NCBI RefSeq assembly: GCF_017352095.1
Contig: NZ_CP071463.1
Span: 496,001-560,000 of the forward strand
Source: Natrinema longum
Lineage (GTDB): Archaea > Halobacteriota > Halobacteria > Halobacteriales > Natrialbaceae
Reading direction: 5' to 3'
DNA length: 64,000 nucleotides
Of the stretch, positions 242 to 58,896 are shown one piece after another. The stretch's first letter is position 1. Each line of letters opens with the position of its first letter. A model generated the notes under the pieces. That model was not told the DNA's origin. It saw nothing but the letters and a program-made list of their open reading frames with translations, and made no database searches. A program made the position numbers and the translations under genes.

Positions 242-672
242 GCCCTCCTGAAAGACCATTCCCGAGATTCACCACGGCGAGCCTGAAAGACCCGGGAAGC
301 ACCCTGATTTGGAATCGCTTCTCCAGTGTCTGCAGAAAACTGGCTGCCGATCGATGCGTGCACTCCCCGTCTTGACCAGTTTGGATGATCGCGAATCCCG
401 GTGACGCCCACTCGAGCATCGAACCAAAGCCCCGGTGCTTCGTTCAGTCGAAGGCAGACCCGCCATGGTCGTCGGTCACGTCCGCTCTCGGCCCATCGAT
501 GTAATCCTGAACCGCTCGAGCGATCTCCCATTGATTCGCTGGCACGGTGGTGGCGATCACCGCGGGACCGAGCAAGCGAAGATCTCGATCGCTTCCATTT
601 TTTAGCAGAACGGTGGTGGAGAGATACCCTTTGGATAAGGGAGGAGGTAAGGGGGACGCTAGTGGCAGTGTA
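242..672. other. Gap without an intact gene; possible gene remnant
   Basis: No intact gene is convincing here. On the minus strand, about 450-610, one frame reads VIATTVPANQWEIARAVQDY and continues to a TGA near 448. It has good haloarchaeal codon use but no acceptable start, so it may be the tail of a decayed gene. The other frames look like chance reading frames with Arg/Ser-rich composition. Confidence 0.4.
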
Positions 673-1200
673 CTATTGGTCGGCTGGTTCAGCGAGTTCT
701 AGATAGAGATTCACGGTAACGCTTTGTTCGCTTGGAGCGGTCACTTGGCTGGTGTAATCAAGTGAAAAGAGGTACTCGCCTTTGTCAAGCGTGCGTGTGA
801 GGGTTGTTTTGGTAACTCCCGTTCGGCTATATTCGGAGACGATGGGAACATCGCGGGCACCGGCCGCGTAGGCGTCATAGGCCTCCCGCTCAAAGACGAG
901 GCAATCAACCTCCGTGTCGCCTTCGACTTCAACGTCGTAGTGCAAGACCTCGCCACTCGCCTCTGGCGAGTTCGTGAGCGCAGTGGCCGAGAATTGACCG
1001 GGACGAAGCGTGTAGGTGCCTTCCCTGCTATGATCTCGGAACGCCCTACGAGAGTCGTTCGGATAGCGGTCGGCGCGATCAGGAACCCCGTCGCCGTCCG
1101 TGTCAGACTCTGTGGTCGTTGGCGAGGACTGGCGAGTTCCTACACACCCACTCCCGATTCCCACCAGAACAACCACGAATGCCCGTCGAGACTGCTTCAT
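673..1200 (-). CDS. Secreted lipoprotein with a thrombospondin-type-3-like calcium motif
   Basis: 175 residues starting at the ATG at 1200, chosen because it places a twin-arginine-like, hydrophobic signal (KQSRRAFVVVLVGIGSGC) at the N-terminus; an upstream ATG in frame would bury it. The GSGC ending fits a lipobox, so the mature protein should be lipid-anchored outside the cell. Next comes DTDGDGVPDRADRYPND, a calcium-binding thrombospondin type 3-like motif common in haloarchaeal surface proteins. The remaining ~120 residues look like one beta-sandwich and match no family I recognise. It stands alone, with no co-directional neighbour close by. Confidence 0.8.
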   Translation of the reverse strand: MKQSRRAFVVVLVGIGSGCVGTRQSSPTTTESDTDGDGVPDRADRYPNDSRRAFRDHSREGTYTLRPGQFSATALTNSPEASGEVLHYDVEVEGDTEVDCLVFEREAYDAYAAGARDVPIVSEYSRTGVTKTTLTRTLDKGEYLFSLDYTSQVTAPSEQSVTVNLYLELAEPADQ

Positions 1201-1403
1201 ACCTATGCAGCCAGACTCACGGTGAAAAAGGTCATCCCTCTCGGAGATCAAATAGGAACGACATTCTAAGTAGGTGATCTGCTGATACTACTTCACTTCT
1301 ACTGGCGGGTGGACCCCCTCTCAGTAGCGACCCGTAGTTACCGCACATGCGTACCTACCGTACGGCTATCTCACTTGCCGGAATCTCGAATAGATGGATA
1401 GAG

Positions 1404-1658
1404 TCAGTCGGTGATGACCCCGATTTCAGTCTCAACCTCGAACGTTACTGCTCGAGTCGAGAGCGTCTCGGCGATCTCCCGACGCTGTTCGAGTGTAAGG
1501 TCGTCGCGCTCGAGGACCTGGCGGATAGCCTGGACGAACTTCCGCACGTCGTCGCAGGCACTGACGACTGCCTTCGTCTTGTTACAATCGTAGCAGTCAG
1601 CTGCGCGTTCGATCGCATCCCGTCGATACGCGTAGTCGCCGTCGGTTCTGATTCGCAT
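1404..1658 (-). CDS. Small DUF7692-like haloarchaeal protein
   Basis: 84 residues from the ATG at 1658 (MRIRTDGDYAYRRDAIERAA); the longer start at 1676 adds only a poor MVVCTS extension. The pattern is a short beta strand, a helix with CNKTKAVVSACDD, and an ending LTLEQRREIAETLSTRAVTF. I recall this as the haloarchaeal DUF7692 family, probably a ribbon-helix-helix-like small DNA-binding fold, but that fold is inference. Such genes are common on haloarchaeal plasmids and integrated elements, which fits this accessory stretch. The long plus-strand frame that overlaps it is its shadow. Confidence 0.75.
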   Translation of the reverse strand: MRIRTDGDYAYRRDAIERAADCYDCNKTKAVVSACDDVRKFVQAIRQVLERDDLTLEQRREIAETLSTRAVTFEVETEIGVITD

Positions 1659-2106
1659 GCTCGTACACACGACCACCGAAATCCTAGTTTTTTCGACTCA
1701 CTGAACGGCCCATTTCGGCCCACAATCGGTGAGTCCTATCGAATAGCGGATGAGAACACGGACTCGAGCGACGGCTCAACTCGAGATATGCACACGGCGA
1801 GTCGCGACTCGTGTACATATTCAGGAATCGGATTCTGTCGACGTACAACCCCGAGTGGTTGTTTTGGAAACGAGTTCCAGAGATTCTATTCAAACGTTCA
1901 CAGTGAGAATTCTTCGATTAATATGTATGCAAAATACTGTGATCAAAAATCTGAAGAGTGCTACTATGTCGACGGTTGCACGATCGTCTCGACTGGCCCA
2001 AAGAGTCCTATTACACCGCGGTTCAAGAGGGCCAAATAAAGAACCGATCGAGGTGATGCCACGGTCAGCGCGGTCGAATGCGCCCGAAGGCGGTTGTTTG
2101 GCCGAT
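1659..2106. other. Gap, AT-richer, no supported gene
   Basis: The part around 1880-1990 is clearly AT-richer than its surroundings. Short frames here are unlike known proteins. I see no RNA gene, no transposase and no repeat; probably degraded accessory DNA. Confidence 0.4.
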
Positions 2107-4830
2107 TCAGGACGCGTGCTTATACTTCTGTTTATACTCCTCGTACTCGCGTTTTGCGCGCTCGTAGGCGTGTTTCTTCTTTTTGAGTTGCTTTTTGTTC
2201 ACCTTGCCCTTCTCGTATTTCTTTTTGTACTCCTCGTACTCACGCTTTGCACGCTTATATTTGCGTTTTAGCTTCTTCTTGTTCTTCCCGTCGTCCCCAT
2301 TCTCGGGTGCCTTCGTAAATTCCAGAATGTCCCCGTAGACAACCGTGGCACCGACCTGAGCGACCGCTCGGAACTCGTAGGTCGTGCCAGTCTCGAGGTT
2401 CATCGCCGTCGCATTGAACGGTCCGGGTCCGGTGAGGACCGTCTCGTCGGTAAACGTCCACACCTCGGTCCCCTTGACGCGGTACAGGAAGTAGACGGTA
2501 ACCTCCGCTGCACCCTCGAGTTCGAGCAGTTCGCCGTTGAGCGTGGCCGTCGAGCCGTTGACCTCCGTCGCCGGCTTCGTCTCGACGTCCAACTCGTCCG
2601 GGCTGAGCTTGGTAAACGAGAGCGTGGTTCCGAGGAACCGTTCATCGTTCGCTACCATGGCCGCCCGGAATTCGTACGTGGAACCGAGTTCGAGGCCTTC
2701 GATCCCGGCGCTGAAGTTACCAGGCTCGTCGAGCGTCTGGAACTCGGTGGTGATCCACTCGTCTGCGCCGAGTTCACGCCACTCGAAGAAGACGTCGGCG
2801 GTGTCGAAGTCCCCGAGATCGATCAGTTCGCCGTTGAGCGTGGCCGTCGACCCGTTGATTTCCGTCGCCGGCTCTGTCTCGACATTGGGGACGCCGGCCT
2901 CAACTTTGGTGAACGAGACGATGGTTCCTTCCTCGCGCGTGCCATTCGCCACGACGACTGCCCGGAATACGTACGTGTTCCCGGGCTCGAGGCCGGAGAT
3001 CTCGTCGCTGAAGTCGCCGGGCGCGTCGAGCGTCTGCGGCGTGGTGGTGTTCCACTCCTCCTCGCCGAGTTCGCGCCACTCGAAGAAGACATCGACCGTG
3101 TCGAAGTCACCGATATCGATCAACTCACCGTTGAGCGTGGCCGTCGACCCGTTGACCTCCGTCGCCACCTGAGTTTCGACGATGGGTGCGCCAGGTTCGT
3201 CTTTGGTGAACGAGATAATGGCTCCTTCCTCACGCGTGCCATTAGCCACGACGACCGCCCGGAATTCGTACGTGCCGCCGGGTTCGAGGCCTTCAATCCC
3301 GTCACTGAAGTCGCCGGGCGCGTCAAGGGTCTGCGTCTCGGTGGCAGTCCACTCCTCCGTGCCGAGTTCACGCCACTCGAAGAAGACGTCGACGGTGTCG
3401 TAGTCGCCGAGATCGAGCAGTTCGCCGTTGAGCGTGGCCGTCGAGCCGTTGACCTCCGTTGCCGGCTCTGTGATGACCTCTGGTACACCTGGCACCGTCT
3501 TGATGATGCGAAGCGTGGCCCCTTCGACGCGTTCACCGTTCGCCAGCCCGATCGCCCGGAATTCGTACGTGTTTCCGGGTTCGAGGCCCGCGATTTCGTC
3601 GTCGAAGTCGCCGGACGCGTCGAGTGTCTGCGGCGCGGTGGTGTTCCACTCCTCCTCGCCGAGTTCGCGCCACTCGAAGAAGACATCGACGGTGTCGAAG
3701 TCGCCGAGGTCGGTCAACTCACCGTTGAGCGTGGCCGTCGAGCCGTTAACCTCCGTCGCCGGCGTCGTTACGACGTCAGGAATGGCCGAATCGCAACTAA
3801 TGTCGAGCGTCGTGATGTCGAGACCGATTGCGATATTGTCGGTCTCGAGCGAGTACGTTCCGTCCGCGAGATTCCCCCACGTCGCCGAACCGCCGGCAGG
3901 AACCTCCATGGTCTCCTCGTACGCATCGGGACCGGTGACGGTTACCATCACCGAGACGCTGTTGGGGTTCGATACCGTGATCTCCCCCTCCTCATCTTCA
4001 CACGCCGAGTCCACTTGCAGGTCTACGAGATCGCAGTCACAGCCGGTAACCGTCGCCATCTGAAGATTGACGGCGGTTTGGGCGTACAAACAGCCGTCCA
4101 CCGTTGCGTCGGTGAGTACGTTGATCGCCGTCTGGGCCAGCACGACCCCCGCAAAGTTTGCGTCCGTTCCGATCTCGACGCCGGGACCACCGGCGACCAC
4201 CCAGACGATGTTCTCGGCCTGCGCGCCCCCTTCCAGATTGACGGTTACCCCACTCGCCACGCTGAGACCTCCCGCGACCTGGAAAATCCAGATGTCGTCC
4301 GGACCACCGTCGAGGGTGATATCTCCGTCGATCGAGAGGCCCGTATCCCAATTGTACACTCCTGGAGTCAGTGTTTCTCCGTCGAGATTGCCGCCGCCTA
4401 CATTTGTAAAGTCCGGTGGGATGCGGCCGTACGCATCGGTAAACGCGGTTTCCATATCGCTCACGGCCGTGGTCAATCTGGACGGGGTCGGCTCCGAATA
4501 ATCTGCCGCGTACACCCGTCCGCCCACCTGCGTCGACGTCGCGAAGACGCCCGTCGCATCCAACGTCAGATCGAATCCTGTTATCGCAGTCGACGCAATC
4601 GGGCTCACGCCAATGTCTCCCGCCACGTCGGAATTGGGAACGCTCGATATTCCGGATTTTGCCAGGATCGAAAAATCACAGGCCGTCCCGAGATCGACCG
4701 GTGCCGGACCGTCTTGTTGGATTTGAATCGGGGGATCTTCACCTTCTTGCGCCGCGCCTATACCGGCGAGACCAGCTGTGAGCAACCCACTCGATGCGAG
4801 GACTGTTCTTCTTGTTGGATTGTACTCCAT
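2107..4830 (-). CDS. Secreted ice-binding-like (DUF3494) protein with five repeats and a Lys-rich tail
   Basis: 907 residues. A Tat signal (TRRTVLASSGLLTAGLAGIG, ending before AQE) sends it out of the cell. Residues about 45-265 match the DUF3494 ice-binding-like fold: FSILAKSGISSVPNSDVAGD, SPIASTAITGF, GVYNWDTGLSIDGDITLDGG, then a beta-solenoid-like series to TVTGCDC. Residues ~268-345 look like another small beta domain. Residues ~351-842 are five near-identical 99-residue beta-sandwich modules (TEVNGSTATLNGEL, FFEWRELG, TYEFRA), fibronectin III-like. The last ~60 residues are Lys/Tyr/Glu-rich (KRAKREYEEYKKKYEKGK), highly basic and probably helical, which is odd for a haloarchaeal surface protein. 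DUF3494 domains also occur in adhesins of non-cold organisms, so ice binding is not implied here. Confidence 0.85.
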   Translation of the reverse strand: MEYNPTRRTVLASSGLLTAGLAGIGAAQEGEDPPIQIQQDGPAPVDLGTACDFSILAKSGISSVPNSDVAGDIGVSPIASTAITGFDLTLDATGVFATSTQVGGRVYAADYSEPTPSRLTTAVSDMETAFTDAYGRIPPDFTNVGGGNLDGETLTPGVYNWDTGLSIDGDITLDGGPDDIWIFQVAGGLSVASGVTVNLEGGAQAENIVWVVAGGPGVEIGTDANFAGVVLAQTAINVLTDATVDGCLYAQTAVNLQMATVTGCDCDLVDLQVDSACEDEEGEITVSNPNSVSVMVTVTGPDAYEETMEVPAGGSATWGNLADGTYSLETDNIAIGLDITTLDISCDSAIPDVVTTPATEVNGSTATLNGELTDLGDFDTVDVFFEWRELGEEEWNTTAPQTLDASGDFDDEIAGLEPGNTYEFRAIGLANGERVEGATLRIIKTVPGVPEVITEPATEVNGSTATLNGELLDLGDYDTVDVFFEWRELGTEEWTATETQTLDAPGDFSDGIEGLEPGGTYEFRAVVVANGTREEGAIISFTKDEPGAPIVETQVATEVNGSTATLNGELIDIGDFDTVDVFFEWRELGEEEWNTTTPQTLDAPGDFSDEISGLEPGNTYVFRAVVVANGTREEGTIVSFTKVEAGVPNVETEPATEINGSTATLNGELIDLGDFDTADVFFEWRELGADEWITTEFQTLDEPGNFSAGIEGLELGSTYEFRAAMVANDERFLGTTLSFTKLSPDELDVETKPATEVNGSTATLNGELLELEGAAEVTVYFLYRVKGTEVWTFTDETVLTGPGPFNATAMNLETGTTYEFRAVAQVGATVVYGDILEFTKAPENGDDGKNKKKLKRKYKRAKREYEEYKKKYEKGKVNKKQLKKKKHAYERAKREYEEYKQKYKHAS
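2305..3780 (-). repeat. Five tandem 297-bp coding repeats
   Basis: The gene for the DUF3494 protein contains five head-to-tail units with a spacing of 297 bp, easiest seen from the segment coding STATLNGEL, which recurs around 2530, 2828, 3125, 3422 and 3719. Units 1-4 (counted from the protein N-terminus) are the most alike; unit 5 is more diverged (AAEVTVYFLYRVKGTEVW). Nucleotide similarity is high enough for slippage or unequal crossing over, so copy number may vary among strains. Confidence 0.9.
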
Positions 4831-4920
4831 ATCTGGAACTCTTCGGTGTAAGATATCGTTTTCAGGATGTTAATTCTGTTTAGGTGTACAATATTTTCTC
4901 CAGATAGTCTTCAAATTCGA

Positions 4921-6390
4921 TTAGTGAGTCCATTCCGACGCGCTTGACAACCGGTCCAGTAGGTGGGAAGTGACAATACAGATTACGTGGCGATAGGTGC
5001 TGACCCCCGCTTCATGTGCTTCAACTGGAGTTCCACGTGCGGAAGCAGGGGCGGGGTGCTGTAATTTTTTGTCGAAGTCCCCTTGGAGACACCCGCCAAG
5101 GGGGCTTTCGCGCGAAGCGCGAAACGACCCCGCCGGCGCTGCGGTGCGATCGCGGTGCCGACCCCCGCTCTCGAGGGCCTCACTGGCGATCGTCGCGACG
5201 TTCTCGAAACTATCGTACTTCAACCGCGAAAGGATCGTATCGATCCGCATCTGTCGCGGGTCGCCGTTCTCGTCGAACTCGAGGTCAGCACCGTTCTTCG
5301 CGAGCCACTCTTGGAAGGGCGAGGACTCGGCGACGTGATCGGCCAAGCCCATGATGTGTTGCATCCGATCGGCGTAGCTCTCGATCGCGTACTCGGCGGA
5401 CTCGACGAGCGCGCGGAGTTCCTCGCGATACTTCCGGGCTCGGAACGACACGTCGCCCTGGTCTAACTCGAGGATGTCACCGAGGTCGTTGATCGCTCGG
5501 TAGATCGTCGCGGGGTGCTTCCCCAGTTGGTCGGCGAGGTCGTCGACGGTCGCGCCGCCATCGGTCGCGATCGTCTCCGAAACGTCGCGGGCGGTCTCGC
5601 CCATATCGCGGAGCGTCGTCATCAACAGGTGGTCCGACTTCGCCTCGAGGCGCGGGGTGGGATCTTCGTACAGTTCGACCAGGTCGTCTCGAGCGACCGC
5701 GTCGAAGTGATCGTCAGCAACGTAGACACCGCTGCCGTCGGGCCCGAGCGGGATGTCTTCCCAGTGCAGCGCGTTCAACAGGGTCTCCTCGATTTGCTCA
5801 GTCACTTCGTGGCGATCGGCCCACGCCCATGCCTCGCCGTCGTTCATCGACTTGTTCACCAGGACTTCCACCTTCGGGTGGTAGGATGGGTGATCCTTCG
5901 AAACCGCGTCGGGATCGGCGAGCTGGTAGATCTCGAATTTCCGTCCGTACGTGTGGCTCGGTAGGAGCTTGCTTGCGGATGCTGGATTCAAGAACAGCCG
6001 ATTCTGGTGGTTGACGACTTCCTCGTTGTCGAGATGGAGCTTGGCTTTCACTCCCTCGAGGTCGGACAGATAGTGCGCGACCTTCTGTAAGACACCGGCC
6101 GACGAGAGCTTCTCAGCCCATTCACGGCGAATCCGAACGTACCGCTCGTACGCCCACATTCGACTCGCCGAATGCGGGGTCGTTCTGAAATACTCCGAGT
6201 GAATGCGCTCGCCGGCGTGCTCGAAGATCGCCGCGAAGAACTCCGGCAGCAACTCGAGACCGCGGTCGAGTTCGATGTTGCTGGTGTGAAACTCGACGTC
6301 GACTCCATCGACTTCGCCGACCTGATTCTCCCAGGGGAGTTGCAACCGCTCGCCACTCTCCCAGTGACGCATGTTCGGGAATCGTGGGCC
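4921..6390 (-). pseudogene. DUF7845-like HTH protein gene, truncated at 5' end, altered 3' end
   Basis: An open frame of 483 residues starts at ATG 6372, but the coding similarity continues upstream of it: the codons before the ATG read PRFPN, matching what I recall as the interior of full-length haloarchaeal DUF7845 proteins (about 110-130 residues normally precede MRHWESGE). The N-terminal domain is thus missing. The middle is good: YFRTTPHSASRMWAYERYVR, then a winged-helix segment (VDDLADQLGKHPATIYRAINDLGDI) near residues 270-320. After SEALESGG the protein turns into ~75 residues of unrelated Arg/Pro/Ser-rich sequence read from a region holding two strong hairpins (5079-5124), so the true C-terminus is lost too. 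Probably non-functional; the frame could still make a truncated DNA-binding protein. The family assignment is from memory. Confidence 0.6.
5079..5124. repeat. Two adjacent perfect hairpins inside the broken DUF7845-like gene
   Basis: CCCCTTGG (5079-5086) pairs with CCAAGGGG (5096-5103), and right after it TTTCGCGC (5106-5113) pairs with GCGCGAAA (5117-5124). They lie exactly where the reading frame loses similarity to its family. Paired hairpins of this type occur at ends of some small mobile elements and as transcription terminators; no transposase or clear target duplication is visible, so the origin is undecided. Confidence 0.6.
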
Positions 6391-6398
6391 GAGACCCC

Positions 6399-6415
6399 CG
6401 TTCGATAATCGAACG
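6399..6415. promoter_or_regulatory. Palindrome upstream of the DUF7845-like gene
   Basis: CGTTCGA (6399-6405), three bases, then TCGAACG (6409-6415). On the minus strand a TATA-like TTTATAAA lies at about 6441-6448, which would put the transcription start close to the palindrome. It could be an operator for a winged-helix regulator, or just the scar where the 5' part of the gene was lost. Confidence 0.35.
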
Positions 6416-6493
6416 AAATCAAATGCGCGATCGGCGGCTCATTTATAAACGATGTACCGCCGTCTTGCGAATGTGATCCGTTCGGAAAACGAA

Positions 6494-6568
6494 TGGGCGC
6501 TGCAGGATTTGAACCCGCGGCAGCTTGGTCCGAAGCCAAGTACTCTGTCCAGGCTGAGCTAAGCGCCC
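6494..6568 (-). tRNA. tRNA-Arg (anticodon UCG)
   Basis: Read on the minus strand, a 75-nt cloverleaf: acceptor GGGCGCT pairs with AGCGCCC, D arm starts GCTC, anticodon stem CTTGG/CCAAG encloses the seven-base loop CTTCGGA with anticodon TCG, T arm is GCGGG/CCTGC with loop TTCAAAT, and the discriminator base is A at 6494. CCA is not encoded. It reads CGA codons. No intron is present. The 3' end faces the accessory stretch 1-6490, the usual orientation for an element integrated at a tRNA 3' end, although I found no second copy of the tRNA 3' end in the window. Confidence 0.95.
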
Positions 6569-58251: not shown

Positions 58252-58896
58252 TTACACGTCTTCGGTCTCGTTGTCACCCGTAGTCTCGTTGCCGTCTTCG
58301 GTTTCGTTTGCGGCCCCACCGTCTTCCCCGAGCATCAGGGTAACCTCTTCGTCGGCCCCATCGATTTCGACGTCGTCCTCGGCTTCCTGCCCCCCGTCTT
58401 CGGCGCTCACAGTGTACTCTCCGTTCTCGAGTTCCTCGAATTCGACGTCGCCGTTCTCGTCGGTTTCGTCTTCCATCGGGAAACTCTGGGTGGCGGCACC
58501 GTCTTCGGTCTCGTTGGCCGATTCGTTGGCTGATTCGTTCTCGGACTCGTTCTCCGATTCGGTGACCGACTCGTTGGCCGACTCGTTCCCCGATTCGTTT
58601 TCCGATTCGTTCCCCATCTCTTCGTCGCCCATGCCGCCGACGCCCGCCTCCTCGAGAGTGACGGTCGCGCCTTCGACCGGTTCTTCCTGGTCGTCCTGAA
58701 CCGTCGCTGTCAGCGTATACGTTTCGTCGCCGCTTTCCTCGTCGGTCTCGTTGTCCCCAGCAGGTTCCCCGTTGCCGTCTTCCGTTTCGTTGTCTTCGTC
58801 ACCCGGGCCGCCGTCAGCGCAACCGGCTAACGCGAGTGCGCTTGCTGTTCCTGCCGCGGCCACGAACGTCCGTCGGTTCAGTTGGGTACCGGACAT
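58252..58896 (-). CDS. Acidic lipoprotein with an N-glycosylation sequon array
   Basis: 214 residues. Tat lipoprotein signal LNRRTFVAAAGTASALALAGC. A first acidic stretch is followed by a carboxypeptidase-regulatory-like beta domain (YTLTATVQDDQEEPVEGATV and GDVEFEELENGEYTVSAEDG), interrupted by a low-complexity insert GNESENESGNESANESVTES with many N-x-S/T sites. These sequons are targets of haloarchaeal surface N-glycosylation. The insert is coded by short imperfect repeats (gattcgttctcggactcgtt-like units) at about 58510-58620. Function unknown; a surface shield or adhesion role is possible. Confidence 0.82.
   Translation of the reverse strand: MSGTQLNRRTFVAAAGTASALALAGCADGGPGDEDNETEDGNGEPAGDNETDEESGDETYTLTATVQDDQEEPVEGATVTLEEAGVGGMGDEEMGNESENESGNESANESVTESENESENESANESANETEDGAATQSFPMEDETDENGDVEFEELENGEYTVSAEDGGQEAEDDVEIDGADEEVTLMLGEDGGAANETEDGNETTGDNETEDV

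Follow-up and report, generated by a model that had tools for sequence, protein, structure and literature searches.

What surface a protein would meet in molar salt when it joins an ice-binding-like head, a stalk of beta modules and a strongly basic tail, and which of these parts would do the binding, is the question raised by a gene of Natrinema longum at 2107..4830 (- strand) of the window, the 64,000-nucleotide stretch of contig NZ_CP071463.1 analysed here. A single open reading frame encodes an exported DUF3494–FN3–basic tail protein of 907 amino acids, for which two AlphaFold2 models were obtained: a full-length model (18 rows, mean pLDDT 79.5), whose pTM of 0.37 leaves the relative placement of the domains undefined, and a second model of module 5 and the tail (7 rows, mean pLDDT 87.4).

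The head, residues 44–266 (4033..4701, -), had been assigned to DUF3494 in the earlier note, and profile, solved structures, AlphaFold2 and Foldseek all uphold that assignment. The PF11999 profile matches residues 55–262 over 208 of its 208 positions (E 3.5e-68), residues 44–262 match ice-binding proteins of the PDB with E down to 3e-69, and the structure prediction proposed as a check returned the DUF3494 fold and not something else: a beta-solenoid with a long helix at 115–135, lying within 1.0 Å of solved ice-binding proteins (Foldseek TMt 0.96, rmsd 1.0 Å and 53% identity on Ca. Cryosericum protein 9lhn). The fold is shared with FfIBP (4nu2/4nu3), 9lhn and TisAFP at 43–55% identity, together with T-A/G-X-T/N motifs; TAIN at residues 234–237 (4120..4131, -) fits the motif reported for FfIBP in the available portion of PMC5334608, and alignment places a second, TAVN, at residues 252–255 (4066..4077, -). 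A head that binds ice in freezing brine, protecting the cell or holding it at brine–ice surfaces, would suit this identity, the near-identical predicted fold to tested ice-binding proteins and the two motifs of the window copy, but is an unlikely account of the protein, given the charge at the presumed binding face (the second motif reads TDVN in 13 and TRVD in one of 21 haloarchaeal heads, and is charged in 14 of 21), the recorded origin of two plasmid carriers from saline soil and sediment in Xinjiang, and the occurrence of DUF3494 in settings without ice, where it is presumed to bind a substrate, described in the accessible part of PMC12337378. That adhesion is likelier than ice binding for this protein is plausible.

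From bacterial and fungal DUF3494 ice-binding proteins the present protein differs in its acidic head (net -23), its FN3-like stalk and basic tail, and its haloarchaeal host. With SfIBP-type ice adhesins, as far as the excerpted descriptions go, it shares a DUF3494 domain combined with tandem beta-sandwich domains; whereas that type carries DUF3494 at the tip of the stalk and is anchored by the opposite end, the head is here N-terminal, directly following the signal or lipobox and next to the lipid anchor of relatives. Among 31 bacterial loci chosen by likeness to the window protein, and not amounting to a census, the DUF3494 domain ends ≤20 residues from the end of the frame in 27 (one at a contig edge), 19 of which have at least 99 residues ahead of the domain; longer C-terminal parts are present in L033, L034, L041 and L061. 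The head itself is an ordinary DUF3494 domain, and the tail module is the unusual part.

Full-length PF11999 occurs in 17 of 125 genomes of the family and in 19 of 391 of the class (18 and 20 genomes passed the cut-off, one in each search with a weak composite match), three of the 19 lying outside the family; weak partial matches of 19–25 bits (G052, G008, G084, G139 and G347, and second matches of G085, G176 and G335) were left uncounted. The 21 proteins compared throughout represent the 20 genomes of both searches, the window included, and a Halomicrococcus copy on a named plasmid. All 21 heads form one group (SH-aLRT 100), which is compatible with a single origin of the haloarchaeal heads followed by a new fusion. 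A protein tree of 14 of the 21 (G092, G334, G176, G335, G040, G095 and the Halomicrococcus copy being left out) rejects monophyly of the six same-genus copies (p-AU 2e-6), and the rpoB tree groups seven same-genus genomes (96/97). The head in the window shares 96.9% identity with its Natribaculum breve counterpart (rpoB 94.9%) and 87.0–88.3% with those of three congeners (rpoB 97.2–98.0%); one other genome of the same species (rpoB 99.8%) is without the gene. Judged from these sequences, the gene is patchily shared and apparently swapped between relatives.

Matches to the two flanks lie 16 kb apart in the same-species genome as against 6 kb in the window, which places the gene in a variable region (465–6493) ending at a tRNA-Arg (6494–6568). 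Insertion at the 3' end of this tRNA-Arg was considered and rejected, neither the window nor the 19 kb searched containing another copy of its end. In two congeners, at other loci, conservation covers only the gene, the 160 bp preceding it and a short piece following it (1930..4990, -, the last piece being visible from 1930 as far as 2060, where the query stops); alignment of the upstream regions of relatives yields just a short conserved stretch ahead of the start. A conserved operon was likewise rejected, no neighbour cluster being common to more than four of 22 stretches (the window start, its own 19-kb stretch, 19 other genomes and one plasmid copy) and the listed neighbours recurring only within genus pairs, so that genomic context gives no function; one homologue adjoins aglM, aglF and glycosyltransferase genes. 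Nearby, a DUF7845 gene and a short neighbouring stretch (5003–6393) constitute a multi-copy element of the genus, with three copies at least 93% alike in this genome, this one included; 673–1251 (-) encodes a small putative Tat lipoprotein (MKQSRRAFVVVLVGIGSGCVG) of no clear family; and 1349–1852, with similar copies elsewhere in three congeners, is possibly a decayed mobile element. Towards the other end of the window, 58505–58612 holds a 36-bp tandem repeat array with a 12-bp sub-unit.

An extra all-beta domain of about 80 residues, a predicted beta-sandwich (270–348; 3787..4023, -; AlphaFold2 strands at 271–344) separates the head from the modules and, like the missing lipobox cysteine described below, goes beyond the earlier reading. 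Sequence comparison and AlphaFold2 delimit five FN3-like modules, all on the - strand, at 3478..3774, 3181..3477, 2884..3180 and 2587..2883 for modules 1–4 and at 2302..2586 for the divergent module 5, which both models cover. The five 99-residue beta modules reported previously are confirmed in number, with a length of 99 in four and 95 in one, but are not nearly identical in DNA as had been stated: they are 74–83% alike in DNA (79% matches by TRF) and 47–79% alike in protein, modules 1–4 sharing 65–79% and module 5 sharing 47–55% with the others. Membership of the FN3 class is indicated by a PF00041 match above the cut-off (1.1e-10) and by Foldseek matches to FN3 chains, and the module of the second model again matches FN3-like domains. 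Modules of this FN3/purple-acid-phosphatase N-terminal type, 33–48% identical, are found in pectate lyase and DUF1349 proteins of haloarchaeal plasmids; unlike other haloarchaeal FN3-type modules, those described here have a fixed order and position-specific sequences, and no similar ones were found in other genes of this genome.

The proposed comparison of repeat number across relatives gives five modules as the norm (15 of the 21 proteins, in conserved order), with eight, one and none in two proteins each; the suggestion of a variable-length stalk is in this respect only weakly true. In means taken over nine of the 15 five-module proteins, same-position modules from different proteins agree at 84–87% and different-position ones at 49–75%, indicating that the array is inherited as a whole. 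Both eight-module proteins have modules 5, 6 and 7 nearest to their own modules 2, 3 and 4 (84–89%, 86–93% and 81–84%), which identifies these forms as block duplications. Two divergent haloarchaeal DUF3494 proteins (L017, L092) have very long repetitive acidic linkers, with DPDD and TDTETD runs, in place of FN3 modules.

An export signal, in line with the earlier note, is supported by sequence and by alignment with relatives: the N-terminus is a twin-arginine signal (MEYNPTRRTVLASSGLLTAGLAGIGAAQ; residues 1–27, 4750..4830, -; RR at 4807–4812). The window copy is without the lipobox cysteine, an in-frame loss of the codon leaving LAG at 4762..4770 (-), and four other proteins also have no cysteine at this position, which 16 of the 21 possess as LAGC (14) or FAGC (2). 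LAGS stands in place of the lipobox in two Halovivax-type copies (G029, G033), and G092 and G334 have other signals. The available text of PMC2945643 gives an RR-to-Cys spacing of 12–21 for Tat lipoproteins; the spacing is 15 in the N. mahii copy (G061), whereas the window copy shares the Tat signal with haloarchaeal LAGC lipoproteins and has no cysteine in that interval. In Haloferax Tat lipoproteins, according to the same portion of PMC2945643, Cys-to-Ser exchange blocks processing; three of the mutants were released and two stayed with the cell, and on this mixed outcome the window copy may be either released or retained. The cysteine in 16 of 21 proteins suggests that the usual anchor is an N-terminal lipid, with the head predicted near the membrane and the tail distal; in lipobox proteins the head starts ∼20–40 residues past the lipid site, which would direct stalk and tail away from the membrane.

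The tail, residues 844–907 (2110..2301, -; from composition and both models), had been described as some 60 strongly basic residues dominated by Lys, Tyr and Glu, and its composition agrees: 64 residues comprise 23 Lys, 8 Tyr and 8 Glu, with a net charge of +18 and a pI of 10.1, the rest of the protein being acidic (head -23, linker domain -18, modules -79). Its 23 Lys per 60 residues compare with 7 in the next frame among 338 stop-to-stop frames of at least 100 amino acids in the window, a composition beyond chance. Helices are predicted at 847–873 (2212–2292, -) and 879–904 (2119–2196, -) and are repeated in the second model, the tail as a whole being a predicted helical hairpin.

A search with the tail matched 26 of 125 family genomes, and a 19-row profile matched 20 of 391 class genomes, all within the window's own family. 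As read from the loci, the tail accompanies a DUF3494 protein in 16 of the 26 (in one it is cut off from the gene), and in the other 10 it belongs to at least three other kinds of protein: FCGTFSPGPQ-type proteins (G041, G086, G089); WGGQGSENATQEC-type (WGGQG-type) proteins that combine FN3-like modules with two tail units (G090, G101, G103, and G098 seen in part); and, in G055, a PQQ- and DUF7282-domain fragment for which no start was located, besides a 33-residue tail remnant in G094 and a contig-edge tail fragment in G121. G085 has a gene of the FCGTF type in addition to its DUF3494 gene, and another, in G105, was found by the class profile search only. One FCGTF-type and one WGGQG-type example had no Pfam match at 0.001. 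A lipobox is present in the tail proteins of G101 and G103 and absent from the FCGTF kind and from G090. G101 encodes one and the same tailed protein on two of its contigs (L083, L089). Conversely, the tail is present in 15 of the 21 DUF3494 proteins and six end otherwise, so it is not essential to the head: other C-terminal parts are found in the copies of Halohasta litorea (G335), G334, G092 and Halomicrococcus, and on a Natribaculum breve plasmid (G049) an IS66 transposase gene lies between gene and tail, a natural tail-less form. The last 60 residues are net negative in five of these six proteins. Nei–Gojobori dN/dS values for the window against up to 14 others are 0.20 for the tail (tailed proteins only, 12 of 14), 0.15 for the head and 0.21–0.31 for the modules, values indicating that the tail is under purifying selection.

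That the tail recurs on further exported proteins speaks for its having a role of its own. A viral origin was considered and rejected, no relative being confirmed among 466 candidate stretches, with one weak module match in phage records; plasmid BLAST with the tail gave no match and is uninformative, such sequence being masked by BLAST and a known tail-carrying plasmid missed. Among open-licence PMC papers, none dealing with this protein or its tail in haloarchaea was recognised. The Lys/Tyr hairpin may be an undescribed portable surface-attachment domain of the Natrialbaceae, a basic clamp, single or doubled, at the distal end of various exported proteins, lipid-anchored or not, that would bind the acidic S-layer or an exopolymer in molar salt, a possible but on the whole doubtful reading.

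Two other roles could be served by the same helices. Both contain clear a/d heptads of Tyr, Leu and Ala, and the tail alignment has invariant Tyr and Lys columns; an oligomerising coiled coil, bundling two or more stalks and leaving the lysines without a binding role of their own, accounts for the heptads equally well as an attachment module and has on its side a very weak likeness to hairpins of helices in OEP (E 0.35) and in membrane-fusion proteins (E 0.08, 0.32). It leaves the lysines unexplained in proteins whose bodies hold ∼1% Lys (0.6–1.2%), and is rather unlikely; the AlphaFold2 runs, being of monomers only, carry no information on oligomers. Lys-rich predicted helices might alternatively hold extracellular DNA at the surface for biofilm formation or uptake, a role for which the available part of PMC5118699 offers a lipobox protein, presumed to act in DNA metabolism, whose abundance is raised in haloarchaeal biofilm; the tail's eight glutamates, profile searches returning no DNA-binding domain match and the lack of a conserved neighbour gene make nucleic acid a very improbable partner.

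For the attachment module, a candidate partner is the Haloferax S-layer protein, described in the accessible part of PMC8640222 as strongly enriched in negative residues and as forming a pore whose lining consists of such residues and metal ions, in an acidic layer stabilised by cations. The tail was earlier proposed as an anchor, which fits copies without the lipobox cysteine, the window's among them, but not the 16 of 21 with the cysteine, in which the tail is the distal end and a second anchor would be redundant. It also counts against attachment that helices predicted from 7 to 18 rows carry little weight for a stretch so rich in Lys and Glu. Molar salt weakens electrostatic binding, so the Lys-rich tail need not act by charge.

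The Tat-type signal, the fold, the modularity and selection on the tail are supported computationally, and with them we tentatively prefer, at somewhat less than an even chance, an exported cell-surface protein of adhesin type with a C-terminal basic attachment module. The head would bind a solid or polymer surface, the FN3 array would keep the two ends apart, and the tail would attach to an acidic partner, whether the S-layer glycoprotein, its glycans or an exopolymer. Most relatives would be held by a predicted N-terminal lipid that keeps the head close to the membrane while the tail reaches outward; the window copy, without the lipobox cysteine, would be left with the tail, or with a signal peptide that escapes cleavage, as its tether.

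As a rule, haloarchaeal proteins that leave the cell are acidic so as to function in salt, and a conserved, selected and portable basic domain outside the cell runs counter to this. The natural variants, with or without lipobox, with or without tail and with five or eight modules, are ready-made controls, and the tail offers a small, testable model of how a protein sticks to surfaces at molar salt.
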